Shown: one piece after another, positions 16,688-42,788 of the stretch
How positions within the stretch are numbered: position 1 is the first letter of the stretch
Layout: each line of letters begins with the position of its first letter
From: Limnobacter sp. CACIAM 66H1
GTDB lineage: Bacteria > Pseudomonadota > Gammaproteobacteria > Burkholderiales > Burkholderiaceae_B
DNA: 42,788 nt
NCBI RefSeq assembly: GCF_001601825.1
Contig: NZ_LUJK01000027.1
Span: forward strand, 1-42,788
Direction of reading: 5' to 3'
Program-made: the position numbers and the translations under genes
The notes under the pieces: model-generated
Seen by the model: the letters and a program-made list of their open reading frames with translations, nothing else
What the model was told of the DNA's origin: nothing
Databases searched by the model: none

Positions 16688-16697
16688 GAATGACCCC

Positions 16698-18043: not shown

Positions 18044-18063
18044 TACATACATGAGTGTATGTA
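18044..18063. promoter_or_regulatory. AcrR-type operator between adaptor gene and TetR gene
   Basis: TACATACA-TGAG-TGTATGTA is a perfect inverted repeat in the 122-base divergent intergenic space. Another TACA precedes it (from 18040). The E. coli AcrR operator on acrAB also has TACATACA and TGTATGTA arms, with a longer centre. The site lies 31 bases before the repressor start and 71 bases before the pump start, so it can control both. Confidence 0.85.
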
Positions 18064-18094
18064 AATAAATTTTTCAATTTTGGCGTAGACGATT

Positions 18095-18715: not shown

Positions 18716-18717
18716 CC

Positions 18718-18742
18718 CGGCTGACACAGGGGCCGGCTTTTC
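18718..18742 (+). terminator. terminator after the TetR gene
   Basis: CCGGC-N10-GCCGG followed by CTTTT begins three bases after the TetR stop. The T-run overlaps the end of the convergent SDR gene. Confidence 0.6.
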
Positions 18743-19427: not shown

Positions 19428-19540
19428 GTGAATTCACTCCCGAATTGATTGTGTGCATGGAGACTATTTTGACATGCCGAATCGGCTTTCACGCCCCCAC
19501 CCCCTTTGAATACCCCCTTTAAGGGCAACGCATTGGTGCA

Positions 19541-22973: not shown

Positions 22974-22998
22974 AAAATTGGCCCAACTCTGGAATGCA

Positions 22999-23024
22999 AA
23001 AAGGCACCCCGAAGGGTGCCTTTT
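22999..23024. terminator. bidirectional rho-independent terminator
   Basis: AAAAGGCACCC-CGAA-GGGTGCCTTTT is a perfect 11-base-pair stem with a stable tetraloop and flanking A/T tracts. It separates the convergent carboxyltransferase and repetitive-protein genes and can serve both. Confidence 0.93.
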
Positions 23025-23066
23025 CACTTTGCCGGGGGGTCGGAGCCCCAGGCAATACTACAAAGC

Positions 23067-24830
23067 TTAGATGGGCAGGCTGTCTGTGGGCAGCGCGCTG
23101 GTCAATGCATCCAGTGGGCTTGCACCGGAGGAGATTGGCAAGCTTGATGGATCCAGCAGGCTTGTCAATGAATCCAGGGGCGTGCCTGTGGACGGGAAGC
23201 TTGGCAAGCCACCACCTGCACCGCCACCTGCTGCCAGGTCGGTCAGTACGCTAGGGTCCAGCAGTGACGTGACCATGTCCAAGGGCGTGCCTGTTTCGGG
23301 GATGCCGGGCAAACCGCCACCCGCGCCGCCACCCGCAGCGGCATCGGCCAATGGGCCCAAAACCGCGTCCAGGGGTGTACCTGTGGGGCCGTCGGATCCA
23401 CCGCCGCCGGCGCCAGCCAGCGCATCGGTCAGAATGGCTGGATCAAGCATGGATGTCACTGAATCCAGAGGAGTACCTGTAGAGGGGAAGCTTGGCAAGC
23501 CGCCGCCACCGCCACCAGCCAGTGCGTCAGTCAGAATGCTTGGGTCGAGCAATGCAGTAACCTGATCCAATGGAGTGCCTGTTTCAGGGAAACTTGGCAA
23601 GCCGCCACCACCTGCGCCGCCCAAGGCGTCAGTGACTGGGCCAAGCACTGCATCCAACGGTGTACCTGTGGGGCCAGCTGCACCACCTCCGTCACCGCCG
23701 GGCAGTGGCAAGCCACCGGACAGCGCTGCAACTAGAGGATCGGTCACAGGGGTCAGTGCGTCGAAAGCCTGGTTCAGGCCATCGGCCAAAGGCTGAGAGA
23801 CCATGGGCAGTGCATCAGTTGCAGTGGCCAAGCCATCAAACAAGGGTGCGGCGGCGTCAAAACCTTGGGTCAGACCATCGTTCAGTGGGCCCAGGGCTGG
23901 TGCAAGCGCTCCAACTGCCTGAGACAGGCCGTCGGCCAGCTGGGGTGTCACCATGCTCAAGCCACCACCCAGTTGTTCTGCGACCACGCGCAGGTTAACC
24001 GGCAAAGTATCAGCAGCGGCTGTCACCAAACCATCCTCATTGCCCGCCAATACATCGACCACGGGTGAAAGCGCTTCTTCAACAGCTTCAGTGATGGGCG
24101 TTACGTTTTGATCGAGCGAGTCGGTCACGGGGGCCAAGCCTGTCAGTGCATCGCTCAAGGTGTCGTTCACAGGGGTGAGGGCTGGCTCGAGTGCATCCGT
24201 GATGGGTGCTGTTTCTTCCAGAACTGGATCCAATGCTTCAGTCACAGGTGCCAACGCGCCTACTGGAGCATCAACGACTGTTGTGACAGGTGACAGCGCA
24301 TCCAGGGTCTCTTCGAGTGCTGGGGAGGCCGGGCCAGCTGCATCGGTAACGGGCTCGAGTGCACCTGCGGCTGCTTCGCCGGAGCCACCACCGGAAGAAC
24401 CACCGCCGGAGCCGCCGTCGCTGTCATCGCTTCCCAACACGAATGCAGCACCAGCTACAGCAGCCAGTGGGCCAGCCAAACCGCCCGCGGCCAAACCTGC
24501 GCCAAACAAGCCAAACATACCGCCTGCGCCTGTTACGGCTACGGTTTCGCCTTCAGTCAACAATTCGAATTCGCCTTCGGCCACTTCAAACTCAGCGCCA
24601 TTCTCACCTTCTTTCAGCGTGGCTACCGCGTTGGATTGCAGAATACCTTCTGTGGCTTTTTGACCTTCGGCGCCAGGAAATTCGATGTAAGCAGATCCTT
24701 CTGCACTGGTGGTAACTGTGTCACCTGCAGAAATAATGTCACCTTCTTTCAGAAGGACTTGTTCACCGTCGGGACGGGTTACAGAAACCTCTCCCAACAC
24801 GCTTTTGATAATTCCAGTGATGTTAGCCAC
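23067..24830 (-). CDS. LapA-like retention-module protein with long repetitive region
   Basis: The protein is 587 residues from GTG 24830 (GGAG ten bases upstream). Residues 1-95 (MANITGIIKSVLGEVSVTRP, then EGDIISAGDTVTTSAEGSAYIEF) resemble the N-terminal retention module of LapA/BapA-type adhesins, which stays in the periplasm or outer membrane channel. Residues 98-131 are hydrophobic and Gly/Ala-rich, then comes a Ser/Gly linker. Residues about 155-385 carry a helical repeat of the form APVTDAL-P. Residues 386-587 carry six TGTPLD modules. There is no RTX GGxGxD repeat, no Ig-like domain and no transporter nearby. It may be a surface or envelope-spanning protein; function unknown. It lies within a catabolic cluster. 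Confidence 0.75.
   Translation of the reverse strand: MANITGIIKSVLGEVSVTRPDGEQVLLKEGDIISAGDTVTTSAEGSAYIEFPGAEGQKATEGILQSNAVATLKEGENGAEFEVAEGEFELLTEGETVAVTGAGGMFGLFGAGLAAGGLAGPLAAVAGAAFVLGSDDSDGGSGGGSSGGGSGEAAAGALEPVTDAAGPASPALEETLDALSPVTTVVDAPVGALAPVTEALDPVLEETAPITDALEPALTPVNDTLSDALTGLAPVTDSLDQNVTPITEAVEEALSPVVDVLAGNEDGLVTAAADTLPVNLRVVAEQLGGGLSMVTPQLADGLSQAVGALAPALGPLNDGLTQGFDAAAPLFDGLATATDALPMVSQPLADGLNQAFDALTPVTDPLVAALSGGLPLPGGDGGGAAGPTGTPLDAVLGPVTDALGGAGGGGLPSFPETGTPLDQVTALLDPSILTDALAGGGGGGLPSFPSTGTPLDSVTSMLDPAILTDALAGAGGGGSDGPTGTPLDAVLGPLADAAAGGGAGGGLPGIPETGTPLDMVTSLLDPSVLTDLAAGGGAGGGLPSFPSTGTPLDSLTSLLDPSSLPISSGASPLDALTSALPTDSLPI
23070..23675 (-). repeat. six TGTPLD modules in two A-B-C sets
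   Basis: This covers codons 386-587 of the repetitive protein. Module order is A (GPTGTPLDAVLGP), B (PETGTPLD), C (LPSFPSTGTPLD), then A, B, C again, each 25-46 residues and mostly ended by a Gly-rich run. The pattern suggests that a three-module block was duplicated. Confidence 0.85.
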
Positions 24831-24957
24831 AGTACATTCTCCGACAATGGTGTGTTCATTTAAAAGTTCGGCGAAAGTTCCGCCTTGTGAGAGTTTTACT
24901 GTCGGTAATCAGGAAATGGATGTGAATATTTCCTAATAATTAACAATGTTTAACATT

Positions 24958-24982
24958 ATTTGTAAGTGTTGTACTTACAAAT
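24958..24982. promoter_or_regulatory. ATTTGTAAGT-N5-ACTTACAAAT dyad upstream of the repetitive protein
   Basis: A perfect ten-base inverted repeat with GTTGT spacer lies in the AT-rich 253-base region between 24831 and 25083, about 130 bases before the GTG start at 24830. No T-run follows. It could be an operator for the repetitive-protein promoter; it could also mark the end of the acyl-CoA dehydrogenase unit at 25084. A poorer dyad (AATGT-TTA-ACATT) lies beside it. I saw no gene in this gap. Confidence 0.55.
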
Positions 24983-25083
24983 CCTGATTTGCCGCCTGTA
25001 AAGCACTCTCGGGGAAACGCCGATCGAATCTAATTCTTTGTTATTCAGCCAATTAGTGTAACTCTTTCGGGGGGTAATTTACA

Positions 25084-26214
25084 TCACCAGGCCAGTTGTC
25101 GAATGGCCAGTTCTTTCATGATTTCTTCTGCGCCGCCACCAATGCACATCACTTTTACTTCGCGGTAAATACGCTCGGTGGAGCTTCCGCGCATGAAGCC
25201 CATGCCCCCGAGAATTTGTACGGCCTCATTGGCACAGTGCTGCAAGGTTTGAGTGGCTTGGTTTTTTAGCAAACAGATATCGGCCACTAGCGTTTCGTTG
25301 ATATTACCCCGGTCGATTCGGTCTATGGTCTCGTCGAACCAGGCCTCAGTGGCCCGGACTTTCATTCGCATATCGGCCAATTTGTGGGCAATCACCTGAT
25401 GATCCATCAGGCGTTTGCCAAAGGTTTGACGATTTTGGGCCCAATCCAGAGCCTCATTCAAACACACCTTTGAGAAGCCCACGCAAGCACCGGCCAGCAT
25501 CAAGCGTTCGGTGTTGAAGTTTTCCATGATGATGCGAAAACCTTTACCCTCTTTGCCGACCAGGTAGGCAGCAGGTACTTCCACATTGTCAAAGTAAATG
25601 CTGGCGGTGTCACTCATCCACCAACCTGTCTTTTTCAGCGGGCTACGGGTCAGGCCCTTGGCGTTGCCTGGCACCATGAGCACGGAAATACCGCGTGCAC
25701 CGGGCTCGCCAGTTCGTACAGCCACAGTGAGCCAATCGGCACGCACGCCGCTGGTGATGAATACCTTTTCGCCGTTGATTCGATAGTAGGGAGTGCCGTC
25801 TCTATGAAACAGGTCAGCTTTGGTTTTCAGATTGGCCACGTCAGACCCGCCCGAGGGCTCGGTAATGGCCAGCGCGCTGATGGCTTCACCTTTCAATACA
25901 GCAGGAGCGATCAGTTGAACCAGCGCTTCACTGCCATGATTCAACAACGGAGGTAAACCGATGTTGTGGCTGAACAGGCCTGCCAACAGGCCTCCACTGC
26001 CTGCGGAACACACCAGGTTGGACAGCCTCAAGCGATCGGCCAGCGAGCATTCGAATCCTCCGACTTCTTCCGGGTAACCCAGGCCTAGCAAGCCAAGCTC
26101 GCCAGCCTGACGGTACAGCTCGCGGGGGAATTCCCCTGCCTCGTCCCAGTCATTGATGTGGGGCTTGATCTGCTCATTGACGAATCGCTCCACCGAGCGG
26201 AAAAAGTCTTCCAC
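25084..26214 (-). CDS. acyl-CoA dehydrogenase, third gene of the carboxylase operon
   Basis: The protein is 376 residues from GTG 26214, which has GGAGGAG upstream; the open frame extends to a TTG at 26265 without such a site. ACAD motifs: ALAITEPSGGSDVANLKTKA, GWWMSDTASIYFDNVEVPA, the QILGGMGFMRGSSTERIYRE segment, and a C-terminal MCIGGGAEEIMKELAIRQ typical of citronellyl-/isovaleryl-type dehydrogenases. It starts 34 bases after the biotin carboxylase stop. It probably introduces a double bond into a branched or isoprenoid acyl-CoA before carboxylation. Confidence 0.9.
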   Translation of the reverse strand: MEDFFRSVERFVNEQIKPHINDWDEAGEFPRELYRQAGELGLLGLGYPEEVGGFECSLADRLRLSNLVCSAGSGGLLAGLFSHNIGLPPLLNHGSEALVQLIAPAVLKGEAISALAITEPSGGSDVANLKTKADLFHRDGTPYYRINGEKVFITSGVRADWLTVAVRTGEPGARGISVLMVPGNAKGLTRSPLKKTGWWMSDTASIYFDNVEVPAAYLVGKEGKGFRIIMENFNTERLMLAGACVGFSKVCLNEALDWAQNRQTFGKRLMDHQVIAHKLADMRMKVRATEAWFDETIDRIDRGNINETLVADICLLKNQATQTLQHCANEAVQILGGMGFMRGSSTERIYREVKVMCIGGGAEEIMKELAIRQLAW

Positions 26215-26248
26215 GGATTGTGTCTCCTCCAGCCGGGCTGTGTGTTGT

Positions 26249-28237
26249 TTATAGAATCTGACCAAGCTGGACCATGGCTTGTTTCTGCTTCATTTGGTCA
26301 CCCACCCTGATGTGCACCTGCTCCACCACTGCAGCGGATTTGGCAGTAATGCGATGTTCCATTTTCATGGCCTCCAGACACACCAACACGGTGCCAGCTT
26401 CTACCTGTTGGCCCGGTTGAACCAGCACTTGTGTCACTTTGCCGTTCATCGGGCTGCTGACAAGGGGTTGAAACACACCTTCCGCCAAGGCAGAGGCACT
26501 CAGAAGAGTTTCATCATCCACATGCAATGCCTGTGGATTTAGCCATTGTTGAACCCATACTCCGCTTGAGCTAGGCGTCAGGGTGTATTGCGCGGATAGC
26601 CCTTGCACCATCGCCTTGATGGTGAAACTGCCTTTTGCCATGTCGTTACAATTCCAGTGCTCGATCACCACTGTTTCATCACCCAGTCCTTCGATCACGT
26701 AACCTTGCACGCTACGCCCAACCTTCAAATTCAAGGTGGTGCCCCGAGCCTTGATTTTCAGCGGCTGGGGCAGCGCACGTGTGCTTGAAAAGCCCGTCAA
26801 AGGTATCGGCCACGCGCAGTGCTTAAGGCGGGGTACATAAGCCAAAAAGACTGCGGCCACGGCACACTCTGGCAGGAAATGTTGAGGTTTGAGCAATTCA
26901 TCAGCATGCTGGGCCAAAAAGCCCGTGCCGAAATCACCCCCCTGAAAAACAGGGTGGCTGGCAATTCGTTGCAAGTAGAGTGCATTGTGCTCAAAGCCGA
27001 TGAGTACGGTTCTTTTGAGTGAATCAGCCAGCTTTTCGCAGGCGGAAAGGCGGTGATCGCCATGCACAATGACCTTCGCCAAAAGGCTGTCGTACCAAGG
27101 ACTTACCTCACCGCCTGTTTGCAGGGCGTGGTCGCAGCGGCTGTTCGCATCAGGACTCCAGGCCAACACTGGCCCGGTTTGCGGCATGAAGTCGCGCGCA
27201 GGGTCTTCAGCACACAGGCGGCCTTGAATGGCATGGCCGTTGAACACGATTTGCTCTTGTTGCAAGGTGAGGTGTTCGCCTGACGCAATTCGCAATTGCC
27301 ATTGCACAAGATCAATTCCAGTGATGGCCTCTGTCACCCCATGCTCAACCTGCAAACGGGTGTTCATTTCAATGAAGTAAAAGTCACCGTTTGAATCCAG
27401 CAAAAATTCAACCGTGCCCGCACCCACATAGTGGGTGGCATGCACCAGTTTTAATGCGGCTTCACCCATGCGTGCACGCAGCTCCGCGTCCACCGCTGGG
27501 CTGGGTGCTTCTTCCACAATTTTCTGGTGACGGCGTTGAACGGAGCAATCGCGCTCGCCCAAATGCACCGCGTGACCGTGGGTATCGGCCAGCACCTGAA
27601 TCTCAATGTGGCGCGGGTTGATGATGGCTTTTTCAAGCATGACCCGATCGTCGTTGAATGCATTCTTCGCCTCAAGTTGGGCCGAGTGAAGTTGCGATGC
27701 AAATTCGGATTCAGTCATCACCAAACGCATGCCACGCCCGCCACCGCCTGCCAGTGCCTTGATCATGACCGGGTAGCCAATCCGCTGCGCCGCAGCCATG
27801 AGGTCGGTTACGCTTGCGTTGGGCTCACTAAAGCCAGGAATACAAGGCAGGCCAGCCTGTTGGGCAATTTCTTTCGCACGGGCCTTGTCGGCCATGTCAG
27901 CAATCGCCTGTGGCGTGGGACCGACCAAGGTAATTCCCGCGTCCACGCAGGCTTGCGCAAAGGCAGGGCTTTCCGATACAAAACCATAGCCGGGGTGAAT
28001 GGCGTCTGCACCGGCTTTCAGGACTGTTTCAATGAGTTTGTCAATGCGCAAGTACGATTCAAGCGAGGGTGCCGGCCCAATGCAATAAGCTTCATCAGCC
28101 TCTTGAACATGCATGGCTTTTTCGTCGGCCTCGGAATAGACGGCGACTGTTGCAATACCCATGGGTTTGGCCGCACGCAGTATTCTGCGCGCGATTTCAT
28201 TGCGATTGGCAATGAGCAGTTTTTTGATCCTAGGCAT
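26249..28237 (-). CDS. acyl-CoA carboxylase biotin carboxylase/biotin carrier (alpha) subunit
   Basis: The protein is 662 residues from ATG 28237 (MPRIKKLLIANRNEIARRIL). The biotin carboxylase part carries EADEAYCIGP, the ATP-grasp glycine loop KALAGGGGRGMRLV, RDCSVQRRHQKIVEEAPSPA and FIEMNTRLQVEHGVTEAITG. The C-terminal carrier domain has CLEAMKMEHRI with the biotinylated Lys. Length fits the alpha subunits of methylcrotonyl- and geranyl-CoA carboxylases. It overlaps the upstream dehydrogenase gene by eight bases. Its beta partner is at 21345 on the opposite strand, about 3.3 kb away, with only the repetitive-protein gene and one dehydrogenase gene between. Confidence 0.93.
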   Translation of the reverse strand: MPRIKKLLIANRNEIARRILRAAKPMGIATVAVYSEADEKAMHVQEADEAYCIGPAPSLESYLRIDKLIETVLKAGADAIHPGYGFVSESPAFAQACVDAGITLVGPTPQAIADMADKARAKEIAQQAGLPCIPGFSEPNASVTDLMAAAQRIGYPVMIKALAGGGGRGMRLVMTESEFASQLHSAQLEAKNAFNDDRVMLEKAIINPRHIEIQVLADTHGHAVHLGERDCSVQRRHQKIVEEAPSPAVDAELRARMGEAALKLVHATHYVGAGTVEFLLDSNGDFYFIEMNTRLQVEHGVTEAITGIDLVQWQLRIASGEHLTLQQEQIVFNGHAIQGRLCAEDPARDFMPQTGPVLAWSPDANSRCDHALQTGGEVSPWYDSLLAKVIVHGDHRLSACEKLADSLKRTVLIGFEHNALYLQRIASHPVFQGGDFGTGFLAQHADELLKPQHFLPECAVAAVFLAYVPRLKHCAWPIPLTGFSSTRALPQPLKIKARGTTLNLKVGRSVQGYVIEGLGDETVVIEHWNCNDMAKGSFTIKAMVQGLSAQYTLTPSSSGVWVQQWLNPQALHVDDETLLSASALAEGVFQPLVSSPMNGKVTQVLVQPGQQVEAGTVLVCLEAMKMEHRITAKSAAVVEQVHIRVGDQMKQKQAMVQLGQIL

Positions 28238-29393
28238 TCTTTTTCTTGCCCGGCAAAATACCCATGAATTTGCAGATGATGCCCAGCATGACTTCGTCTG
28301 CACCGCCACCAATTGAGATCAGTCGGCCATCGCGATACAACTGCGACGCTGGGTTCTCCCAAGTAAAACCCATGCCGCCCCAGAATTGCAAACACTTGTC
28401 AGCGACTTCGCGCACCAAGCGACCACTCTTCAGTTTGCACATGCTGGCCAGCTCGGTGACTTCGCCACCTGCCACGTATTCTTCAGTGGCCTGCCACACC
28501 AAGGCACACAAGGCCTCAATTTCAGTTTTCAATTCAGCCAGTGTGAAATGCACCACTTGTTGATCGAGCACGGTGCTGCCGAACAAGTTGCGCTGGCGGG
28601 TGTAGTTGATGGTTTCGTTCAGCACATGCATCATGCCTTCGATGCTGTTGGCGGCACCCCACAGGCGCTCCTCCTGAAACTGAATCATTTGGTACATAAA
28701 GCCTGCGCCTTCCATACCAATCAAGTTGCGCTGGGGTACACGCACATTGTCAAAGTGAATAAGACCCGTGTCGGATGCCCACATGCCGATTTTGTGAATC
28801 TTCTTCTCAATCGTAATGCCCGGTGTTTTCATGGGCACGATGATCAGTGATTTGTTCTGGTGGGGTTTGCCTTCGCTGGTGTTGGCCAACAGGCAAATCC
28901 AGTCGGCTTGCAAACTGTTGGTGATCCACATTTTGCTGCCGTTGATGATGTAATCACTGCCATCTTTGCGTGCGGTGGTTTTGACACCGGCTACATCGGA
29001 GCCCGCACCGGGTTCTGAAACACCGATACAAGCCACCATGTCACCAGCAATGGCAGGTGCCAGGAATTCACGGCGCAGCTCGTCGCTGCCGAACCGCGCC
29101 AAAGCGGGTGTGGCCATGTCGGTCTGAACGCCGATTGCCATGGGCACACCGCCACAATGGATTTTGCCTAAAGCTTGCGCCGCCACCACGGAATAGCTGT
29201 AATCCAAACCCATGCCGCCAAACTCTTCTGGTTTGGTCAGTCCCAGCAAGCCAAGATTACCCATCTTTTTGAACAGCTCATGGGCGGGAAACATTTGTTC
29301 CTTTTCCCAGGTGGCCACGTGTGGGTTGATCTCGTTTTCAACAAAGCGCTCAATGGTGCGCTGCAGTTCCTTGTGTTCTTGGGTGAGTTTCAC
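28230..29393 (-). CDS. acyl-CoA dehydrogenase, citronellyl-CoA dehydrogenase (AtuD)-like
   Basis: The protein is 387 residues from GTG 29393 with GGAG six bases upstream; the frame stays open to 29441 but would cross an operator. N-terminus KLTQEHKELQRTIERFVENE, then GVSEPGAGSDVAGVKTTARK, IHKIGMWASDTGLIHFDNVR and LQFWGGMGFTWENPASQLYR. The combination of this dehydrogenase with a carboxylase of the GCC/MCC group matches the acyclic terpene (atu) or leucine (liu) pathways; I favour atu by overall look. It is the first gene of a three-gene unit led by operator copy 3. Confidence 0.9.
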   Translation of the reverse strand: MKLTQEHKELQRTIERFVENEINPHVATWEKEQMFPAHELFKKMGNLGLLGLTKPEEFGGMGLDYSYSVVAAQALGKIHCGGVPMAIGVQTDMATPALARFGSDELRREFLAPAIAGDMVACIGVSEPGAGSDVAGVKTTARKDGSDYIINGSKMWITNSLQADWICLLANTSEGKPHQNKSLIIVPMKTPGITIEKKIHKIGMWASDTGLIHFDNVRVPQRNLIGMEGAGFMYQMIQFQEERLWGAANSIEGMMHVLNETINYTRQRNLFGSTVLDQQVVHFTLAELKTEIEALCALVWQATEEYVAGGEVTELASMCKLKSGRLVREVADKCLQFWGGMGFTWENPASQLYRDGRLISIGGGADEVMLGIICKFMGILPGKKKNA

Positions 29394-29412
29394 GATGTCT
29401 CCAACATTGACA

Positions 29413-29430
29413 ATCAAACGTTTGTTTGAA
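29413..29430. promoter_or_regulatory. operator copy 3: ATCAAAC-GTTT-GTTTGAA
   Basis: The dyad TCAAAC-N4-GTTTGA lies 20 bases upstream of the dehydrogenase start, in the same relation as copies 1 and 2 to their genes. It is placed to control the whole dehydrogenase-carboxylase-dehydrogenase operon. Confidence 0.8.
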
Positions 29431-29509
29431 TTTATTGTCAAAAAATATCATCCCCCCGCAAGAAAAGCAAATACGGTTTTCAAAGTCACTTTAAGTTCAC
29501 CGCGACCAG

Positions 29510-30565
29510 TCAAGTCTGATCATCGTTCCCGTCCATCGCATTCATGATTTCTCGAAATACAGCTGCCGCCATTTCCAAATGATCCGACTTGATGTACTCC
29601 TCGGGTTGACAGTCACGATAAATTGCTCTGGCCAGTGCCACATACTCGACAACGGGAATCTGTAGCTCCTCGGCTCGCTTCCTCATCATTGGCACCTGTT
29701 CATCAACCTCGATGAACAGAACATAAGGCACATCATGTACACCGGGTTCATAATCCAAGCCGACAGCAATGTGAGTTGGGTTTGTAACTAGTACTTTCGC
29801 ATCACCTAACTTACTCAGGGAGCTATTCAGAATGCTGCGATGTTCCTGTTTCCGGTGGTGCTTGATCTCCGGGTTACCCTCAACCACTTTGTATTCATCC
29901 TTAAGATCATTCTTACTCATTCTTAACGACTTTAGATAAGCCATGTAAGTAATCAGCCAGTCGAGAATACTGAAGAACCCGAGTATCGCGATTAAGGTGA
30001 AGAAAAACTTTTTGAGCAACTGGTGCAAAGACTCAAAGACCCCTGTCAATCCACCAAAAACCGACAAAAGAATCGTCTGAATCTCATAAGTTAAAATGTA
30101 ATAAAGACCCAAAAAAACAAAAGTAATTTTGAAGAAAGCTGTGACCAAGAGAAGGAGGCTTTTCTTGGAGAACATGTTCTTGATGTTTTCAACAAAATTG
30201 AGCTTTTTTATGGAAGGTAAAACAGGCTCTGTCGAAACGACAAACCCGATATGCGCCCAGGTTGAAAACATGCCAATCAACATACCAGCTGCAGCAAAAC
30301 CCATGAACAGCAAAGCGGAGGGCCAGATGATTGCGACAAGGAGCTCCGCGACTAACAACTCCTCACCAGATTGAAGAACGAAGAATATCTGATCAAAAAT
30401 ATCAGAAACAGGCCCGGTAAATAGTGCGGGAAATACAATGATCCCGCCCAGTAAAAACAAGAGTTTCCCGAGCGTGACCAACTCCTTGGCATAAGAAACC
30501 TGACCTTTCTTTCGACTATCTTTAATCTTCTTCGGCGTTGGCTTTTCTGTCTTTTCTCCGCTCAT
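29510..30565 (-). CDS. sctU: type III secretion export apparatus switch protein SctU (YscU/SpaS family)
   Basis: The protein is 351 residues from ATG 30565, overlapping the SctT stop (ATGA). The N-terminus MSGEKTEKPTPKKIKDSRKK is diagnostic. Four hydrophobic segments follow, then a cytoplasmic domain with the autocleavage motif NPTH (VLVTNPTHIAVGLDY) and the pocket sequence DEQVPMMRKRAEELQIPVVE. SctU switches substrate specificity of the injectisome. It could be confused with flagellar FlhB, but the neighbours SctT, SctS and SctN of the injectisome type favour SctU. The gene appears intact, unlike sctS and sctN upstream. Confidence 0.92.
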   Translation of the reverse strand: MSGEKTEKPTPKKIKDSRKKGQVSYAKELVTLGKLLFLLGGIIVFPALFTGPVSDIFDQIFFVLQSGEELLVAELLVAIIWPSALLFMGFAAAGMLIGMFSTWAHIGFVVSTEPVLPSIKKLNFVENIKNMFSKKSLLLLVTAFFKITFVFLGLYYILTYEIQTILLSVFGGLTGVFESLHQLLKKFFFTLIAILGFFSILDWLITYMAYLKSLRMSKNDLKDEYKVVEGNPEIKHHRKQEHRSILNSSLSKLGDAKVLVTNPTHIAVGLDYEPGVHDVPYVLFIEVDEQVPMMRKRAEELQIPVVEYVALARAIYRDCQPEEYIKSDHLEMAAAVFREIMNAMDGNDDQT

Positions 30566-31368
30566 CGCGACACCTCGGCGAGGAATCCCGATATCCACTC
30601 TAGATTCTGGCGAATCATTTGCGAAACCGCATCATTCATAAATTCGAAAATCAAAAGCAAGATCAACAGGCCGATCAGGCATTTCAATCCAAACTGCATC
30701 GAATAGAACTGCACGTTGGGTGTAAACGCTGCTACAACAGCAACACACAACTCGGTCAAAATCAGCACCACGATCACGGGTGCGCAAATCAGAAAAGCCA
30801 TGACAAAGGCCTTCTTGAACAGCTCAAAGACGGGGATGGCCCACATCTGTAAATCTCCCATGGCTAAAACACCGGGAGGTAACACGATGAAACTGCCTTG
30901 TACCAGCTCAACGGCCTGAATCAAGCCTGCCCCAGTTAAAAAGAGATAAATATAGACAATCGTCATGAACTCCTCGAGGGGTAAGGATTCACCGGACTCA
31001 CCTGAAGTCATCTGTGCTGCAAACGATGTTCCTCGCAGGTTATCGATTAAATTACCTGCGATTCGATAAGCGAAATAAGGGGTCAAAATGACAAAACACA
31101 ACATCACCCCAAGCAAAGCCTCCGACAGCATCATGCCAATGATCGCCAAGGAGTGAGTGACTTGCAAATCCACCAGTGGTGCGAACTGAATCGCGGGCAT
31201 GATGATCAAAGCCGCACACACACAGGACTTGATAAGCCATGTGCTTATACTTCGACTAAACAATGGCAAGAGTGCTATGAACGCCATGGTGCGGGGAAAG
31301 AACCACAAGGCAGCGTGGAAGATATCTCCAACATCTCCCACAGAGCCTAAAAGTGCTTCGTAAATCAC
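30562..31368 (-). CDS. sctT: type III secretion export apparatus protein SctT (YscT/SpaR family)
   Basis: The protein is 268 residues from GTG 31368, which overlaps the SctS stop (GTGA). It is very hydrophobic, with family segments FFPRTMAFIALLPLFSRS, AAQMTSGESGESLPLEEFMT and LCVAVVAAFTPNVQFYSMQF. SctT forms part of the SctRST helical export gate in the inner membrane. Length is normal (about 260). Low G+C compared with the flanking metH region. Confidence 0.92.
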   Translation of the reverse strand: MIYEALLGSVGDVGDIFHAALWFFPRTMAFIALLPLFSRSISTWLIKSCVCAALIIMPAIQFAPLVDLQVTHSLAIIGMMLSEALLGVMLCFVILTPYFAYRIAGNLIDNLRGTSFAAQMTSGESGESLPLEEFMTIVYIYLFLTGAGLIQAVELVQGSFIVLPPGVLAMGDLQMWAIPVFELFKKAFVMAFLICAPVIVVLILTELCVAVVAAFTPNVQFYSMQFGLKCLIGLLILLLIFEFMNDAVSQMIRQNLEWISGFLAEVSR

Positions 31369-31568
31369 TTTTTACCGAGATAGGCGACTTGGTCAAGCAA
31401 GCCATTGGTAAATTGGATCAGGAGATCGCCCATCCATGGACCTAAGGTGACCAACAAGGCAACTGTTCCAAAGACTTTGATACCGAAAGGTAAGGACTGA
31501 TCTTGTAATTGAAAAACCGCCTGCAGAATACCGATCAGTACACCGACCAGCACAGTCATTAAAACCAT
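31365..31568 (-). CDS. sctS: SctS export gate subunit, 5'-truncated
   Basis: Only 67 residues from ATG 31568, against about 86-88 in SpaQ/YscS/SctS. The clear family core VLVGVLIGILQAVFQLQDQS and LPFGIKVFGTVALLV is present. In the same frame, conserved-looking codons continue upstream of the ATG (LYVSAP) until a TGA at 31617-31619, with no usable start among them, so most of the first transmembrane helix is lost. The truncated end coincides with the truncated 3' end of sctN. The product is probably non-functional unless rescued by another copy. It ends overlapping sctT. Confidence 0.85.
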   Translation of the reverse strand: MVLMTVLVGVLIGILQAVFQLQDQSLPFGIKVFGTVALLVTLGPWMGDLLIQFTNGLLDQVAYLGKK

Positions 31569-32779
31569 GGGGGCCGAAACATATAATCGGTCTCGGCATC
31601 TGAACCTTTCTTGTACTCATCCAACTGCAAAAGTAACTCGACCTTCTGATATCTTTCATAAATTCGACGGACTGTCCTGCAAACTGCAAGATGTCCCTCA
31701 TCCACCACGTTGGATTGGACACGAGACAAACTCTGGATGATATCGACAGCAGGGTATTGACCTTTGTTGGCCATTTCCTGAGAAAGGATGAGGTGAGCAT
31801 CCAGCAAGGATTTGCATTCAGAGGCTACAGCGTCCTCGGAGATCGATTTTTTCTCCATCAACACGGTATAAACCGCGGTAATATCCCCAACCTGAGTGCG
31901 ACCCGAACGTTCTATAAGTCTCGGCAATAACTGATAAACCGATGGTGTAAGAGCATCGCGTGTGGTTGGCTCTCCTGCAGCCATTCCGATTTCACGTTGT
32001 GCTCGAGCAAGGCGTGTAACCGAGTCGATCAATAAAAGCACTCGAAACCCTTGATTGCGGTATGCCTCTGCAATCGTGGTCGCGGTGAACGCAGCACGAA
32101 CCCTTTCAAGCGCGCTTTTATCGGAGGTTGCACAAACAACCACCGATCGGGTCCTGGTAGCTTCGTCAAGCTCATTTTCATAAAACTCCCGAACTTCCCT
32201 ACCACGCTCTCCAACCAACCCAAAAACCACCCGGTCGACATCTGCGCCCCGAGCGATCTGCGCCATGAGTGTGGATTTGCCGCAGCCGGGGGGAGCGAAT
32301 ATTCCGATTCGTTGACCAGAGCCAAAGGTATTCATCACATCAATACAGGCTATCTTGGTCTTCATGGGTGAGGAAATTGGCGGTCGGTCTGTCGGGGAAG
32401 GGCCCTCCTTTATGACAGATTCGCCTAACCCGCTCAAATCCAATGCACCCGAGTCAAGTGACAATCCTTGTTCAATGTCGCGACCGAATCCATCTAGAAT
32501 TCGTCCCAAAATGGTGTCATTGACGCAAATTGCATGGCTGCGGCCTGTAGACGTCACGCGCGCACCATGTGTGACACCTAAAACATCCTCCAAACAAACA
32601 ATCAGCGCCTCGTTTCCCTCGAACGCAATCACCTCACCGATCAGGTGTACTTTTTTCTTCTGATTGGTTTCAATGAGTACAATTTCGCCCACAAAGGAAT
32701 TTGGCAAATCACTTCGAATCAAACTTCCTTTCAGGCTTTTGACACGACCACCCGTGTGGATTACCTTTGTCGTCCACAA
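31559..32779 (-). CDS. sctN: type III secretion ATPase SctN, C-terminally truncated
   Basis: A 406-residue injectisome ATPase (YscN/InvC family; about 430-440 usual). Walker A APPGCGKST, the GERGREVREF segment, Walker B LLLIDSVTRLARAQREIGMA and PSVYQLLPRLIERSG are intact. Family similarity stops after EYKKGSDAETD (residue 398); the last eight residues (YMFRPPWF) are unrelated, and the usual helical end is missing. The start is also odd: TTG 32779 without a good ribosome site, after an in-frame stop 18 bases earlier, leaving only about 11 residues before the GGRV motif. It overlaps the preceding gene by 71 bases. Confidence 0.9.
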   Translation of the reverse strand: MWTTKVIHTGGRVKSLKGSLIRSDLPNSFVGEIVLIETNQKKKVHLIGEVIAFEGNEALIVCLEDVLGVTHGARVTSTGRSHAICVNDTILGRILDGFGRDIEQGLSLDSGALDLSGLGESVIKEGPSPTDRPPISSPMKTKIACIDVMNTFGSGQRIGIFAPPGCGKSTLMAQIARGADVDRVVFGLVGERGREVREFYENELDEATRTRSVVVCATSDKSALERVRAAFTATTIAEAYRNQGFRVLLLIDSVTRLARAQREIGMAAGEPTTRDALTPSVYQLLPRLIERSGRTQVGDITAVYTVLMEKKSISEDAVASECKSLLDAHLILSQEMANKGQYPAVDIIQSLSRVQSNVVDEGHLAVCRTVRRIYERYQKVELLLQLDEYKKGSDAETDYMFRPPWF

Positions 32780-33173
32780 AAGGACTTGAGGTAATCAGGC
32801 CTGGATCAGTAAGTTCGCTTTGAACATCGACTCGTTGACGATCTCCATCTTCCGAGGAACGACATGAATCCAACGTCACTGATACTTCCGAATCAAGAAA
32901 GAAAGCTTGTTTTTTTGGCGTTGGTAGCTCAGCGATGAAGCAATCGAGCACAGCATCTCTCGGGCTTTGACATGGTGGATCGAAGACCAAGTCGATGAAT
33001 TTTTTTTGATCGTGAACCGAAGAAAGCCTCCCAGCATCAGTCTGCACACGCTTCAAGACCCTGGCGTCTTTACGCTGATTCTCAAGTAATTTTAATACTT
33101 GCACATCTCCAGCGCTGTGACTTGCAACATCCTTGGCTGTAATGGTTGAATCAATAGTCTTCGAATTACTCAT
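32709..33173 (-). CDS. unrecognised protein of the type III locus
   Basis: This 154-residue hydrophilic protein starts at ATG 33173, with AGGT six bases upstream, and overlaps the gene before it by eight bases. The N-terminal half is Lys/Asp-rich and probably helical (LKLLENQRKDARVLKRVQTD). The C-terminal part is polar, without a signal or membrane segment. The last 24 codons overlap sctN in another frame, which is unusual and may mean a frameshift or loss of the original stop. Position between a SctW candidate and SctN suggests a chaperone or regulator; no homology is recognised. Confidence 0.6.
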   Translation of the reverse strand: MSNSKTIDSTITAKDVASHSAGDVQVLKLLENQRKDARVLKRVQTDAGRLSSVHDQKKFIDLVFDPPCQSPRDAVLDCFIAELPTPKKQAFFLDSEVSVTLDSCRSSEDGDRQRVDVQSELTDPGLITSSPFVDDKGNPHGWSCQKPERKFDSK

Positions 33174-33522
33174 GGCTTACCTGTTTGTTTTTTAAGCCAA
33201 CCATGCCCAGACAATGGTCCAAAACATGACTAAGATATTGAGGATTTTTATTTAGTGAAAAGCCCTCTATTGTCTCCAGTGCCAGCGCAAAAACAGGAGG
33301 ACAAACCACCTTCAGGTACAAATCATGTTGCATGCTGTAGAACGGTTGATCCTCCAGCGTAAGGAAGTTGGACACATCAACCCAAAATCTGTTTTCAGGC
33401 AACAAGAAAACTGACCGCTCTGGCAACATTCGAAAGGTTTGGTACATTTGCAAATTTTCAAAAATAAGCCAACCGGCTACCCGACCTATTTGCTTTAGAT
33501 CAGATTCCTGTTCAATTTCCAT
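33166..33522 (-). CDS. unrecognised small protein of the type III locus (chaperone candidate)
   Basis: The protein is 118 residues from ATG 33522, overlapping the previous gene's stop by 11 bases. It is acidic at the N-terminus (MEIEQESDLKQIGRVAGWLI), then mixed alpha/beta with RSVFLLPENRFWVDVSNFLT in the middle and a helical end (PQYLSHVLDHCLGMVGL). Size and position between a gatekeeper-like gene and the ATPase correspond to InvB/TyeA-type small partners in other systems. The sequence itself does not prove it. Confidence 0.65.
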   Translation of the reverse strand: MEIEQESDLKQIGRVAGWLIFENLQMYQTFRMLPERSVFLLPENRFWVDVSNFLTLEDQPFYSMQHDLYLKVVCPPVFALALETIEGFSLNKNPQYLSHVLDHCLGMVGLKNKQVSHE

Positions 33523-34696
33523 GGCGTCTCATTCGCAGTAGCTTTTCAGAAAGCTTTGATATGTCGGTAATCTCATTGAGCTTGTCCGCAGATTCTGCCC
33601 ATAGCGTGTCTTTTGTGTCCCTTACAAAACAGACTGCTAGTCGTAAATAGCGCAAGGCTCCAAGTGCATCCACACCAATTGAGCCGTAACTATCACGCAG
33701 CATGTTGTTCTCGCGGTGTCCAACGCCGCGCAGTGTTCTCAAAAAAGACACCGTGAAATCTGCGCGATCGGGCAGACTTTTCGCATTGATTTTTGTGAGG
33801 CCTTCCATAAAGAATTCGACCCTTTCATATACCGTAGACAGCTCATTGATCATGTTGATTTCCCTGTTGAGCGCGGCCAATCTGCGTAACGAATACTGCG
33901 AGGGGTAAAGGATCTGTTCCTTTTTGATCACCGTAATCAACCGGTGATGAATCATTCGAAGGTATCTAGGCGCATTCTCAAAATGTTCTCGAACAAGCAC
34001 GAGATCATGAAGATTGGCCAAGTCAACCGCTCCGGAGTAGCAGCCGGCGTAAATTTGAACAAAATGTTTTGCTTTGAGTGGCATAGACTGCTCTACAAAA
34101 AGCCCATCGTCATAAGCTCCCAGTGAGGGCATCACCACGTCTGAAAATTTAGCAGCAACATCCACAATATTTTGTTCGGTTTTTTGCATCTCCTCATCAG
34201 TTAAATGAATCAAACCCTCTTGATGTTTTGCACGTAGGGTCAGTAGAGAGAGATAGACTCGAAGTGCCTTTTGCTGCTCTGATTCGCCCCGATACTGATT
34301 GGCTGGATCATCAAATGCGTAACCTTTATTGGGTAGAACACGCATCACGGAGTGCTCAAAGAAAGTGTCGTCATCAGAGATCAGTGTTGAGAATGCCTTA
34401 CGCAGATCGCTGTAACTTTTACTGCGGGTAAACCAAGGGGCGGGAATCAGACCCGATCGGGCGACTGCGTCAAGCTTTCCCTGCAAGTTCGATTCATTGG
34501 ATTTTTTGTTGCCGGCAGCTATGGTTGGTGCGCCCTTCGTGGCCTGGCGATTTTTATGAATATTTCCCGTACTTCTGGCCTGTGCTATTCGATTCAAAAA
34601 ATGACCATCAGTAACAAAATTCGAATTACTCGAACTGGTGTGATCCAAACCCGTAAATATATTTGGAACAATGCTTTTTGGTATGGTTATGGCCAT
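33512..34696 (-). CDS. type III locus protein, possible gatekeeper SctW (YopN/InvE-like)
   Basis: This 394-residue, mostly helical cytosolic or secreted-type protein is first in the minus-strand cluster, with AGAGGT before ATG 34696. The N-terminus is Ser/Thr/Asn-rich and disordered (HTSSSNSNFVTDGHFLNRIA), as in secreted effectors and gatekeepers. The rest has helical bundles, e.g. KALRVYLSLLTLRAKHQEGL and MINELSTVYERVEFFMEGLT. Length and place before the ATPase fit SctW, which holds back effector secretion. No motif I can see is decisive. G+C is low: a sample at 34141-34200 is about 37%. Confidence 0.6.
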   Translation of the reverse strand: MAITIPKSIVPNIFTGLDHTSSSNSNFVTDGHFLNRIAQARSTGNIHKNRQATKGAPTIAAGNKKSNESNLQGKLDAVARSGLIPAPWFTRSKSYSDLRKAFSTLISDDDTFFEHSVMRVLPNKGYAFDDPANQYRGESEQQKALRVYLSLLTLRAKHQEGLIHLTDEEMQKTEQNIVDVAAKFSDVVMPSLGAYDDGLFVEQSMPLKAKHFVQIYAGCYSGAVDLANLHDLVLVREHFENAPRYLRMIHHRLITVIKKEQILYPSQYSLRRLAALNREINMINELSTVYERVEFFMEGLTKINAKSLPDRADFTVSFLRTLRGVGHRENNMLRDSYGSIGVDALGALRYLRLAVCFVRDTKDTLWAESADKLNEITDISKLSEKLLRMRRHGN

Positions 34697-34777
34697 TTCA
34701 ACCTCTTTTCACCTGTGACATTTGAGTGAAAATAAAGAGGTGCAAAGTTCAAAAAATAATGTGAAAAATCTTGAAGT

Positions 34778-35299
34778 TCAGATGGGTCTCCACACCATCC
34801 AATACATCCGATCGTGTTGGTGGTATTCGATAACCTTGAACCCAAAACCAACATAAAGCTTGAGCGCAAACCGGTTTTGGGCGTGAACGAATAAAGAGAG
34901 CCTTTCCCCTCGTGCAGCCAACTGGGTGGAAAATTGCCCAAGTATGCGACGACCGATGCCTTGACGTCGATACACAGGTTTGACGATTAATTTTGCCAAG
35001 AGGTGACCAAAACCCTGAAAATGATGAAGTTCAGCATAACCAAGTGTTTCACCCGACTTGCTGGCAACAAGGGCTTTTCTGAATGATTCAGAGTTGTGCG
35101 TCAAACGTGGACTTGACGCAGTAAATCTTTCACCTGAAATAAGGGTCGAGTCTAGATCGAGATCGAGATCGCCAGCCCAGAACTTAATTTCATTGTGTAT
35201 TAGAACTATCGCTACCGGAGAGACCTCCCAGCGAAAATTACAAGGTGATGAATCCAATTGAGGTAGACCGCGCTGTTGGAACCCTTGATTTTGTGACAA
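34778..35299 (-). CDS. GNAT-family N-acetyltransferase
   Basis: The reading frame starts at TTG 35299; another TTG is 14 codons downstream, and neither has a good ribosome site, so the N-terminus is uncertain. The acetyl-CoA binding motif A is clear: LIVKPVYRRQGIGRRILGQF (R/QxxGxG), with FVHAQNRFALKLYVGFGFKV as motif B (N..A..LY...GF). It is most like general small-molecule or RimI-type GNAT proteins; substrate unknown. It lies 58 bases downstream of metH and upstream of the type III genes, sharing the latter's lower G+C. Confidence 0.85.
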   Translation of the reverse strand: MSQNQGFQQRGLPQLDSSPCNFRWEVSPVAIVLIHNEIKFWAGDLDLDLDSTLISGERFTASSPRLTHNSESFRKALVASKSGETLGYAELHHFQGFGHLLAKLIVKPVYRRQGIGRRILGQFSTQLAARGERLSLFVHAQNRFALKLYVGFGFKVIEYHQHDRMYWMVWRPI

Positions 35300-35357
35300 T
35301 CAAAAACCAAAGGTTCCGGACTCGCGGCTAGTACGGGGATCATCGAATCGCTAGGGA

Positions 35358-39152
<3,795 letters not shown>

Positions 39153-39239
39153 CGCGGGGCCTCTATATGATGCAAGGGTTTGAAAACAGGCTGCATTTTA
39201 GCAGGTAAATGGCGTAAAGCGTTGTACTCCGGACGTACG

Positions 39240-39420
39240 GCGAAGCAAGTGAACCGCGCAATATTGCCTAAGCAATGCTTCTAATTCCGGCTTGACGCTT
39301 CTGGCTTGGGGCATGCGAAACGCCTTGGCGTCTTCGCATCGGTTCCTGGCGGAACCGCCCCGCGCTGCGAATCCGCCGGGAAGCCTTGCAAAGCCGGCAA
39401 CACAGCGCAGCTCACTTACT
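39240..39420 (-). other. hairpin-rich leader region upstream of metH
   Basis: The 305-base gap 39153-39457 holds no convincing gene. It has a nested stem GCTGCG...CGCAGC (39364-39411) with GCCGG/CCGGC inside. Next to it are a seven-base hairpin CGGTTCC-TGGC-GGAACCG (39340-39357), a 12-base-pair hairpin with one bulge (39313-39339: ATGCGAA-ACGCC paired to GGCGT-TTCGCAT), and ATTGC-CTAA-GCAAT (39263-39276). It may be a riboswitch-like leader or a dispersed palindromic repeat. I could not match it to the cobalamin or SAH riboswitch consensus. Confidence 0.55.
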
Positions 39421-39457
39421 CCTCCGTTGTATCTTTGAGTCTCCCACTTTTTCCATT

Positions 39458-39982
39458 TCACGGCACCACAGTAGCCCCTCGCAGGCGATATAAACCATAC
39501 AGGTTGGCCACAGTGATCACGATCATGGTCAAGCACAGTTCCCAGGAATCAAACAGGTAACCATGCACCGCCCACAGGGCGTTGGTGACCAATGTGGCTT
39601 TGCGCATGCCAACGTTGCCCATCATGAACAAGGCCCATGTTCCCAACAAGGTAGCAAACAGCGGCAGAGAACTGGCCAGCCAGCCCTGCCAGGTGAACAC
39701 AGCAATCGCAATCGCCAGACCGCTAAAACCTAGTACCAGCGCCAAACGCAAACGCTGGCCCATGACGTTGGAATAAATGGTGACGGCTTGTCGTACCCCA
39801 GTCAGCAACATGATCAAGAAACCGGTGTGCACGCCCAACAGGTAGTATTGAAGCCCCCAAGCCATTGACGACAACGCAAACAAGAGCTTGGTACCGCGCT
39901 CTGATATGACGCAGAACCCGGCAATACTCAGACCAAACGCCAGGACGCCGACAGCCCGGGTTAATAAATCAGTTGAATCCAA
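39458..39982 (-). CDS. YgjV-family inner membrane protein
   Basis: This 174-residue protein has six or so hydrophobic helices (VGVLAFGLSIAGFCVIS, LLFALSSMAWGLQYYLLGVH, LALVLGFSGLAIAIAVFTW, LTMIVITVANLYGLYRL). The pattern, with QYYLLG early and NALWAVHGYLFDSW late, fits YgjV (PF10688). The function of the family is not known. The start is TTG 39982 and lacks a clear ribosome site; no ATG exists nearby. It is upstream of metH on the same strand. Confidence 0.8.
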   Translation of the reverse strand: MDSTDLLTRAVGVLAFGLSIAGFCVISERGTKLLFALSSMAWGLQYYLLGVHTGFLIMLLTGVRQAVTIYSNVMGQRLRLALVLGFSGLAIAIAVFTWQGWLASSLPLFATLLGTWALFMMGNVGMRKATLVTNALWAVHGYLFDSWELCLTMIVITVANLYGLYRLRGATVVP

Positions 39983-40179
39983 TTCTGATGATTCCAGTCG
40001 TGATGAAACATTGTTCGCAATACTACCTTTGAATTGTTAACTCCCGGGCAGCAAACACAATCCATCTGAGATTGATTCAATACCCTGAAAAACCAGACAA
40101 ATCATGCCTCTTTAACGATTGAGGGTTGCCTCAGCCTGAGTTACAGTGATTCATCCGCAATTTCCCCAAATTCCGCTTC

Positions 40180-42788
40180 ATGCTTAATTTCAATATTCGC
40201 TCAAGCTTCACAACCCGCTTGATCGTAGGCAGTCTGATTGCGCTGTTTTTACTGTCTATTCCTGTGGCCATTACCGCGCACTGGATTTTGCGCAACAACA
40301 CCATCAACCAAGCGGGTGTGAATGCCTTGGCGCAAACCGAGCAAATCGCGCAGTCGGTTGATCGTCATTTGAAAGAGCACTTGCGTGACCTGGTCTACAC
40401 CAGTCGCATTGAGCAGTCATTTGGAAATTTCAGTGCCGAAGAACAAACCAAGCTTTTGCAGATCATGCGCGACCACACCCCGGGCTATTTGTGGATTGGT
40501 GTGGCAGCACCGGACGGCACCGTACTGGCTGCACTGGACGATTTGTTGGTTGGAAAAAGCGTAGCTGCGCGCCCGTGGTTCAAACAAGGTTTGATAGCAC
40601 CGGCGATTATGGACGTGCATGAGGCGGCTTTGCTTGCGGCCTTGTTACCTTCTCGGGCTGAAGAAAAGTACCAGTTTATTGATTTCACCACCCCGCTGAA
40701 AAACAGGGCAGACGAAATTATTGGGGTGATCGGCATTCACCTGGACTGGAAGTATTTCATTGCAGAAATCGAGAAAGACGTATTCAACACCATTAACCCA
40801 TCCGCACCCACCGTAATTCTGGCCAAAGACGGCAGCTTGAGAATGGGCAATCGACTTGACCTGGCGGACTTTCAGGACAGCACAGCATGGACTGCAATGG
40901 CCGGCTTTCAAAGAGCAGTGGCCGGGGAAAACAACTGGTCGATAGAAACCTTGAGTGACGGGAGAGACTACCTGGTGGCTTTTTCGCCCAACAACAGCGC
41001 GGAGACCCGCAGTTTGGGCTGGATTTCAGCCACGGTGACCCCGCTGGATGCCGTGGCATCTCCAATTTCAAAGGCACTGATCGGCGCCATTGTTGCTTTG
41101 ATTATTGGCACAGTGGCCACCCTGTTGCTGGTGCTTGCACTGGGCAGAAGCCTTTCTGCCAAGGCCAGCGCTTATCTTGAACTTGTTCGAAAAAATGACC
41201 CCAAAGCGCTTGAAGCCTCCATGAAGGAGTTACCCACCGAGCTGCAACCCATTTCCCGAGACATTCTTGATTTGACCCGAGGATTGACTGAAAAAAGCTT
41301 GTCACTTGAAAAAGCCCTGAAATCCGCCAAGGAAAGTTACTGGGTGGTTGAAGCCCTGATTGTGCAGGCACCCATTCCAATCGCCATGTTTGACACAGAA
41401 ATGAACTACGTGGCGGCCTCCTCACGCTGGGTACAAACCTTTGCAAATGGCCACAAGGGTAGCCTGGTCGGCAAAAACCATTACGACGTGGTGCCCAACC
41501 TGCACGAACGCTGGCGCCAAGCGCATAAGGCGGGCCTGGCGGGTGAAAGCCTGTCGGCCACTTCAGACCCTTGGACTAGCCAGGACGGACACACCATTTG
41601 GCTGGATTGGGCCATTGAGCCTTGGCTGAAACCAGATGGTCACCGCGGCGGCATTATCTTGATGTGCAAGGATGTGACCGAAGAGCGGCTAATTCGGGAT
41701 AGCCTCGCCGAGAGCGAAGAACGTTTCAAGCTGGCCATGGAGGGTTCACACGATGGACTGTGGGATTGGCAAGTGGGAACGAACAAGGTTTATTTTTCAC
41801 CCAGCTGGAAACGCTTGCTGGGCTACGAAGACCATGAGTTAAGCAATGATTTCGGTACCTGGGAACGCTTGACCGCGCCCGATGACCTCGAGGTGGCAAA
41901 AAAGGTTCTGGCCGAGGCTTTAGACGATCCTGAAAAGGATTCTTACGAGGCCGAATTCTGCATGGCGCACAAAAACGGCCATTGGGTACATATTTTGGCC
42001 AAGGCCCTGATTGTACGCGACGAAGACGGCAAACCGACCCGGGTGGTGGGTACTCACCTGGACCGGACCGTCCAGCTAGAACTGGAAAGCCGGCTTCGTG
42101 AAACAGCCATTGCAGCCAAGGCGGAGAAAGACTCCAACGCAGAAAAAAGCCGCTTTTTAGCCACCATGAGCCATGAAATTCGCACGCCTTTGAACGGAAT
42201 CATGGGTTTTGCACGTTTGCTGGAGATGGATTTGCCACCCGGTGAGCTAAAGGAACAAGCAGGTTATCTCGTGCAGTCCTCCGAAACACTGTCGTCAATT
42301 CTCAACGACATTCTTGACTTCTCGAAACTGGAGTCGGGCATGGTCAAGCTTGTAGATTCGCCATTTTTGATGGAGCAACTGCTCAAAGGCAGCACAGAAT
42401 TGCCTCGCCTGACCTGCGAATCCAAGGGTGTGAAGTTTGAGCTGAACAACAAACTGGGCGAGCATCAGATTTATTCCGGTGACATGGGTCGCCTGCGCCA
42501 AATACTCCAAAACCTTTTATCTAACGCGATCAAGTTCACTTCTCACGGCAAAGTTAGCTTAACCGTCAGCAACACACAATTAAATCCAAACGAAGACCTG
42601 ATTACTTTTGAGGTCAGTGACACTGGCCTTGGCATTCCAAAAGACAAACAATCACTGTTGTTCAAGCCTTTTTCGCAGGTACACACTGACCGTGAAAACC
42701 GGTTTGGCGCTACTGGGCTTGGTTTGTCGATCGTAAAAAGCTTGGTCAACGCCATGGGTGGGGAAATTCAGCTGGAGTCGGAGCTGGG
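40180..42788 (+). CDS. membrane sensor histidine kinase with two PAS domains (3' end beyond window)
   Basis: 869 codons from ATG 40180, running off the window. TM1 is at about residues 14-36, then a periplasmic cache-like sensor domain (about 37-300), and TM2 (about 300-325, ALIGAIVALIIGTVATLLLV). PAS 1 is at about 400-505 (APIPIAMFDTEMNYVAASSR) and PAS 2 at about 510-640 (FKLAMEGSHDGLWDWQVGTN, KRLLGYEDHEL). The dimerisation helix has the phospho-accepting His665 in MSHEIRTPLNG, and the ATPase domain has NLLSNAIKFT, DTGLGIP and GLGLSIVKSLV. A receiver domain downstream is likely, as in similar hybrid kinases, but is not visible. No signal can be named. The 197 bases upstream show nothing distinctive. 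Confidence 0.93.
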   Translation, partial: MLNFNIRSSFTTRLIVGSLIALFLLSIPVAITAHWILRNNTINQAGVNALAQTEQIAQSVDRHLKEHLRDLVYTSRIEQSFGNFSAEEQTKLLQIMRDHTPGYLWIGVAAPDGTVLAALDDLLVGKSVAARPWFKQGLIAPAIMDVHEAALLAALLPSRAEEKYQFIDFTTPLKNRADEIIGVIGIHLDWKYFIAEIEKDVFNTINPSAPTVILAKDGSLRMGNRLDLADFQDSTAWTAMAGFQRAVAGENNWSIETLSDGRDYLVAFSPNNSAETRSLGWISATVTPLDAVASPISKALIGAIVALIIGTVATLLLVLALGRSLSAKASAYLELVRKNDPKALEASMKELPTELQPISRDILDLTRGLTEKSLSLEKALKSAKESYWVVEALIVQAPIPIAMFDTEMNYVAASSRWVQTFANGHKGSLVGKNHYDVVPNLHERWRQAHKAGLAGESLSATSDPWTSQDGHTIWLDWAIEPWLKPDGHRGGIILMCKDVTEERLIRDSLAESEERFKLAMEGSHDGLWDWQVGTNKVYFSPSWKRLLGYEDHELSNDFGTWERLTAPDDLEVAKKVLAEALDDPEKDSYEAEFCMAHKNGHWVHILAKALIVRDEDGKPTRVVGTHLDRTVQLELESRLRETAIAAKAEKDSNAEKSRFLATMSHEIRTPLNGIMGFARLLEMDLPPGELKEQAGYLVQSSETLSSILNDILDFSKLESGMVKLVDSPFLMEQLLKGSTELPRLTCESKGVKFELNNKLGEHQIYSGDMGRLRQILQNLLSNAIKFTSHGKVSLTVSNTQLNPNEDLITFEVSDTGLGIPKDKQSLLFKPFSQVHTDRENRFGATGLGLSIVKSLVNAMGGEIQLESEL

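Follow-up and report, generated by a model that had tools for sequence, protein, structure and literature searches.

Why should a bacterial chromosome carry four genes of a non-flagellar type III secretion system (T3SS), two of them cut and the others seemingly intact, and no further gene of its core? We addressed this question for the 42,788-nucleotide stretch of Limnobacter sp. CACIAM 66H1 DNA presented above, which is referred to as the window throughout. Our reading, to which we assign a probability of roughly 0.9, is that the locus is what remains of a T3SS island after two recent internal deletions, and that the genes left behind are dead.

The remnant locus and the identity of its genes

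Read on the minus strand from the metH-like towards the acyl-CoA dehydrogenase-like gene, the locus consists of a GNAT ORF, ORFs of 394, 118 and 154 amino acids, and then sctN, sctS, sctT and sctU (Table 1), these four being the only T3SS core genes in the window. In particular, sctN has lost approximately its first 20-21 native residues together with its last 34 codons. Its match to TIGR02546 ends at profile position 389 of 423, a run of 348 amino acids is identical to the copy on a contig termed L003, and its start differs from that on a second contig, L042 (both described below). The match of SctS to TIGR01403 spans positions 21-80 of 81 and, with the next ATG taken as its start, the protein is 18 residues shorter than in the intact copy, just as the initial annotation, made from the sequence alone, had proposed a missing start. 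Its statement that sctT and sctU are intact also holds.

Table 1. Features of the remnant locus and its borders (window positions)
Feature	Position	Strand	Description
acyl-CoA dehydrogenase-like gene	28230..29441	-	island border, sctU side; name read from sequence
sctU	29510..30598	-	intact ORF, 362 aa from furthest start; PF01312, TIGR01404; protein identical to L003 copy
sctT	30562..31368	-	intact ORF, 268 aa; PF01311, TIGR01401; protein identical to L003 copy
sctS remnant	31365..31568	-	67 aa, against 85 aa in intact copy (L003:3241-3498)
sctN remnant	31559..32779	-	406-aa ORF, TTG start; cut at both ends
junction, deletion 2	31583..31585	-	sctN-sctS fusion, 2,214 bp lost, 3-bp microhomology
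154-aa ORF	32709..33173	-	crosses junction 1; last ~18 residues are out-of-frame sctN DNA
junction, deletion 1	32763..32764	-	joins sctN 5' end to another ORF; loss of at least 10.58 kb
118-aa ORF	33166..33522	-	possible T3SS chaperone, by position only
394-aa ORF	33512..34696	-	possible gatekeeper SctW, positional label, unconfirmed
metH-like gene	35358..39152	-	island border, opposite side; name read from sequence

A flagellar origin of the four fragments is ruled out by the model scores, which are in each case higher for the Sct model than for its flagellar counterpart, all four proteins scoring under the curated cut-offs of their Sct models. Namely, SctU reaches 300 bits with TIGR01404 against 229 with FlhB, SctT 107 with TIGR01401 against 85 with FliR, SctN 471 with TIGR02546 against at most 400 with FliI-only models, and SctS 58 with TIGR01403 against 46 with FliQ. 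In the intact copy, SctC, SctJ and SctR lie above the Sct cut-offs, and SctD, SctV, SctL, SctQ and SctS below them.

The 394-, 118- and 154-aa ORFs have no confident family in Pfam or NCBIfam, and the 394-aa ORF has no confident match among the solved structures of the PDB. Their succession resembles the row of 389-, 113- and 230-aa ORFs that follows sctC in a relative, G014, with measurable similarity for the first pair only: the 394-aa ORF is 22% identical to the 389-aa ORF adjoining sctC (phmmer E 8.5e-13 in a 12-protein set), and the 113-aa ORF stands at the place matching that of the 118-aa ORF, the similarity between the two not being significant. By this order, the 154-aa ORF would be the stump of the third gene in such a row. 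As for base composition, the remnant region (28501-36000) has a GC content of 0.45-0.49 in 1.5-kb bins, as opposed to 0.50-0.60 in the rest of the window, with one dip outside the region (0.445 at 10501-12000).

Two junctions set against contigs of a Nostoc assembly

A search of genome contigs with SctT returned a single locus, the 5,880-bp contig NZ_JAIVFW010000142.1 (L003; coverage 3.47x) of the Nostoc sp. CHAB 5844 assembly (G060), which we take to be a bacterial contaminant in a cyanobacterial assembly. Its positions 1-1066 and 3278-5880 align to the window with 1 and 3 mismatches, respectively, with no window match between them, and the two alignments overlap by 3 bp at the sctN-sctS junction, leaving 2,214 bp missing from the window. 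Identity is 99.9%, with 4 mismatches in 3,669 aligned bases (1 in sctN, 3 in sctU), all of them synonymous, as the SctN core, SctT and SctU show no amino-acid difference between the two copies. The lost DNA runs from the final 34 codons of sctN to the first 12 codons plus one base of sctS, and between them lie ORFs of 138 and 120 amino acids at the positions of sctO and sctP (neither with a family match), sctQ and sctR. Microhomology of at least 3 bp is found in 5.7% of random breakpoint pairs, and the mechanism is therefore only weakly indicated.

This comparison shows the event that the initial annotation had postulated, i.e. one deletion from the end of sctN to the start of sctS. The native end of the ATPase is indeed gone, although its tail is to be read as GSDAETDY followed by seven foreign residues, and not as GSDAETD followed by eight, the Y codon being the 3-bp microhomology itself. 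Likewise, the LYVSAP noted in frame before the sctS ATG is made up of native codons for YVSAP and an L that keeps two native bases. The missing sctO, sctP, sctQ and sctR had been named correctly, but under an SPI-1-like gene order, which is ruled out by the order V-D-N-...-Q-R-S-T-U of the genus.

What had been missing from that account is a second, larger deletion, 1.2 kb from the first, which cuts the other end of sctN. When window positions 22789-42788 were searched against the same assembly, a second contig (L042; C15) was matched over 67 bases: L042:1-64 is identical to window 32700-32763, and the two diverge thereafter. Past the divergence, L042 carries, in the order of transcription, ORFs of 218, 187 and 474 amino acids, a 145-aa ORF, sctJ, a 186-aa ORF, sctL, sctC, sctV, sctD and the ATG start of sctN. 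In the window, at least 10.58 kb including sctD, sctV, sctC, sctL and sctJ is gone at this junction, and SctN now begins with 6 foreign residues in place of approximately 21 native ones.

It should be noted that the intact copy on L003 comes from a low-coverage contig, and that L042 is tied to the window by the 64 identical bases only, with 51 bp of window sequence separating L003 from L042. The far partner of the junction was not found in the Nostoc assembly with window 22789-42788 as query, and we therefore infer both the size of this deletion and its nature as a simple one. Moreover, window 1-20000 had no match there, L003 and L042 being the only pieces of this organism seen. A rearrangement at this junction in place of a simple deletion is possible, given that gene order varies among members of the genus. 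As regards the contigs themselves, the 474-aa ORF upstream of sctJ (L042:7964-9388) matches an EF-hand model (PF13405) at its N-terminus, only slightly over the cut-off, and is possibly a secreted substrate. The T3SS genes of L003 and L042, which match the window strain over 3.7 kb at 99.9% and over 64 bases, respectively, could be misassigned to Nostoc; our literature search found no paper on Nostoc sp. CHAB 5844. The bearer of the intact copy in the cyanobacterial culture looks like a same-species sister that has kept the system.

Fate of the lost genes and of the remnant

Could the lost genes have moved elsewhere in the window's own genome (G000), a draft of 108 contigs scored 100% complete? 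This is ruled out by the DNA searches combined with those for SctJ and SctR. The deleted 2.2-kb stretch matches its own two ends only, and L042 beyond base 67, including the DNA of sctC and sctD, has no match. No other copy of sctR was found, the protein-family and SctR searches being in agreement, and the genome's one member of the FliP family, at 293.8 bits, exceeds the FliP cut-off and is the flagellar protein. The single FHIPEP match is FlhA-like with flhF- and flhB-like neighbours (named by reading), and the best match to SctJ is FliF-like. Consequently, as concerns the genes that had been singled out for a genome-wide search, sctR and sctV are absent, SctJ has no match above cut-off, and the DNA of sctQ and sctC is unmatched. 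Absence of SctC and SctD refers to a DNA-level match of the intact copy, a search whose reach ends short of diverged homologues.

How, then, may the locus have come about? Two deletions would suffice: one with its ends within sctN and sctS, which removed 2,214 bp and is shown against L003, and a larger one on the other side of sctN, where a stretch of at least 10.58 kb would have given way to the junction within the 154-aa ORF. Both could have arisen by end joining or slippage at short homology, and would have been neutral or even favoured once the injector was no longer needed. An export gate or a needle complex cannot form without rings, secretin, SctV and SctR, and as the inner rings and the other three have been lost, the genes that remain are most likely dead. 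That the sctT, sctU and sctN-core frames are still open would then reflect the youth of the loss and not function, the loss being judged young because the aligned DNA differs from the intact copy at just those four synonymous sites.

One may object that the true chromosome is intact and that the assembler dropped two pieces of it. After all, the genome is a draft in 108 contigs, and the two junctions lie within 1.2 kb of each other. Against this, the pieces supposedly dropped match no contig of a genome scored as complete, sctR and sctJ are missing also by separate protein and family searches, and a collapse of repeats requires long repeats, while the mapped junction shares 3 bp only; we hence regard an artefact of this kind as unlikely. 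Even less probable, in our opinion, is that the remnant is still useful, with SctT, SctU or the SctN core serving the flagellar export apparatus or regulation. Such a role would draw on open frames whose proteins are identical to those of the intact copy, on the flagellar FliP, FlhA-like and FliF-like proteins that the genome encodes, and on the precedent of a role proposed for the degenerate ETT2 of E. coli (PMC3459982). However, four changes in 3.7 kb mean little time for decay, such that open frames prove little, and SctN is without both its ends and SctS without its start; SctR, SctV, SctJ and the secretin that the intact copy encodes are missing.

The island and its scars across the genus

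To place this remnant among its relatives, we considered 16 genomes of the genus, including the window's own, and took a total of 19 stretches from the 13 SctJ-positive ones. SctJ is above cut-off in these 13 of 16, with FliF-like matches only in G000, G004 and G015, and SctR is found in 12, with FliP-like matches only in G000, G004, G013 and G015. Both sctN and sctS were found in 12 of the 13 relatives examined, G013 having neither on the stretch examined. In all 12, SctN extends 37-51 residues past the end of its match to the window protein, SctS has 80-89 amino acids, and the sctN stop lies 2,152-2,804 bp from the sctS ATG. Equally short SctN and SctS ends in relatives would have counted against the initial annotation, and none of these 12 has them. 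The order V-D-N-...-R-S-T-U is kept in 11 of the 12, the exception being G011, where sctD was not matched and sctV is cut by the end of the stretch; SctQ was not matched in G001, G003, G011 and G002. For SctV, comparison of the intact protein from the window's species with 11 SctV proteins of the genus gave identities of 44-49%. At the borders, metH-like proteins (84-97% identical) are found on the T3SS stretch of 11 of the 13 relatives and acyl-CoA dehydrogenase-like proteins (88-98% identical) in stretches of 9 genus genomes, the distance between the two genes being 22.6 kb in G014, in the same orientation, as against 5.9 kb in the window. Near these border genes, the T3SS blocks V-D-N-...-U and J-L-C vary in order and orientation among members of the genus (L025, L031, L050, L042).

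Do other members of the genus carry similar scars? On the G013 contig, sctV and then sctJ are kept, and a junction near L054:6777-6789 skips approximately 18.6 kb relative to G007, where the skipped stretch holds sctN to sctU and sctC. DNA identity between the two is about 95% there, and a 4-bp shared word was read by eye at the junction. Since G013 is a draft (250 contigs, 91% complete, 4% contaminated), this junction may be an assembly error instead of a deletion. In G004, a 478-aa ORF beside metH (L066:746-2182) is a fragment of sctV with 73% identity to residues 1-452 of SctV in G007. It is followed by ORFs that resemble two ORFs on the island side in G007; from these to the acyl-CoA dehydrogenase gene there is no further match to the T3SS baits. 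Like the window, both remnants lie beside metH and lack the mid-island T3SS genes, but their breakpoints differ from those of the window, G004 keeping about 452 residues of sctV and G013 keeping sctV and sctJ. In G015, there is no T3SS match in the 10 kb before the acyl-CoA dehydrogenase gene, and the metH side was not located. In other words, three of the four genomes without sctR bear different scars (G000, G004, G013), and the fourth (G015) is without a T3SS match on the acyl-CoA dehydrogenase side. We tentatively suggest, at slightly less than even odds, that the island, at one and the same place in the chromosome, has been lost repeatedly in the genus through internal deletions that arose independently, with the window strain caught in the middle of its loss.

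The operon order V-D-N-O-P-Q-R-S-T-U is what we take to be the mark of Hrp1-type systems, and it is found here as V-D and the start of sctN in L042 and as N to U in L003, the relatives being alike. In this sense, the intact copy and the genus relatives share core genes and operon order with Hrp1-like systems, a likeness by gene order and not by tree, whereas the window keeps just the cut sctN, the cut sctS, sctT and sctU of that core. T3SS contigs from Ostreococcus cultures have been assigned to Limnobacter and found to group as sister to Hrp1 (PMC4224133), two genomes of L. thiooxidans (3.21 and 3.45 Mb) are reported to contain T3SS homologues, some of them possibly misannotated flagellar genes (PMC4557100), and Limnobacter sp. 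MED105 is listed with counts in a table (PMC2702493). In the available portions of these three sources, neither deletion is described.

In one survey, 61 replicons carried at least three of nine core homologues yet lacked at least two, and only two of these were non-flagellar T3SS, which its authors took to mean that such loci are quickly deleted once they stop functioning (PMC3459982). The ETT2 of E. coli, as described in that source, is like the window a chromosomal T3SS locus with part of its genes left; it is likened here by description and not by sequence, whereas the loss in the window can be measured against a 99.9%-identical intact copy. The decay that we describe is ordinary, but its resolution is unusual. 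It is rare to see a partial injectisome locus, and here a loss has been caught early enough for one deletion to be defined exactly, a second to be known from one side, and an almost identical intact locus to be at hand for comparison. It carries two warnings, namely that matches to sctN, sctT and sctU alone are no proof that a system works, and that contigs from a contaminant can bring T3SS genes into a cyanobacterial assembly. Combined with the scars in other members of the genus, this case would allow the pace and sequence of injectisome loss to be tested, and repeated loss, if true, would point to an injector whose cost or dispensability depends on the organisms around the bacterium.
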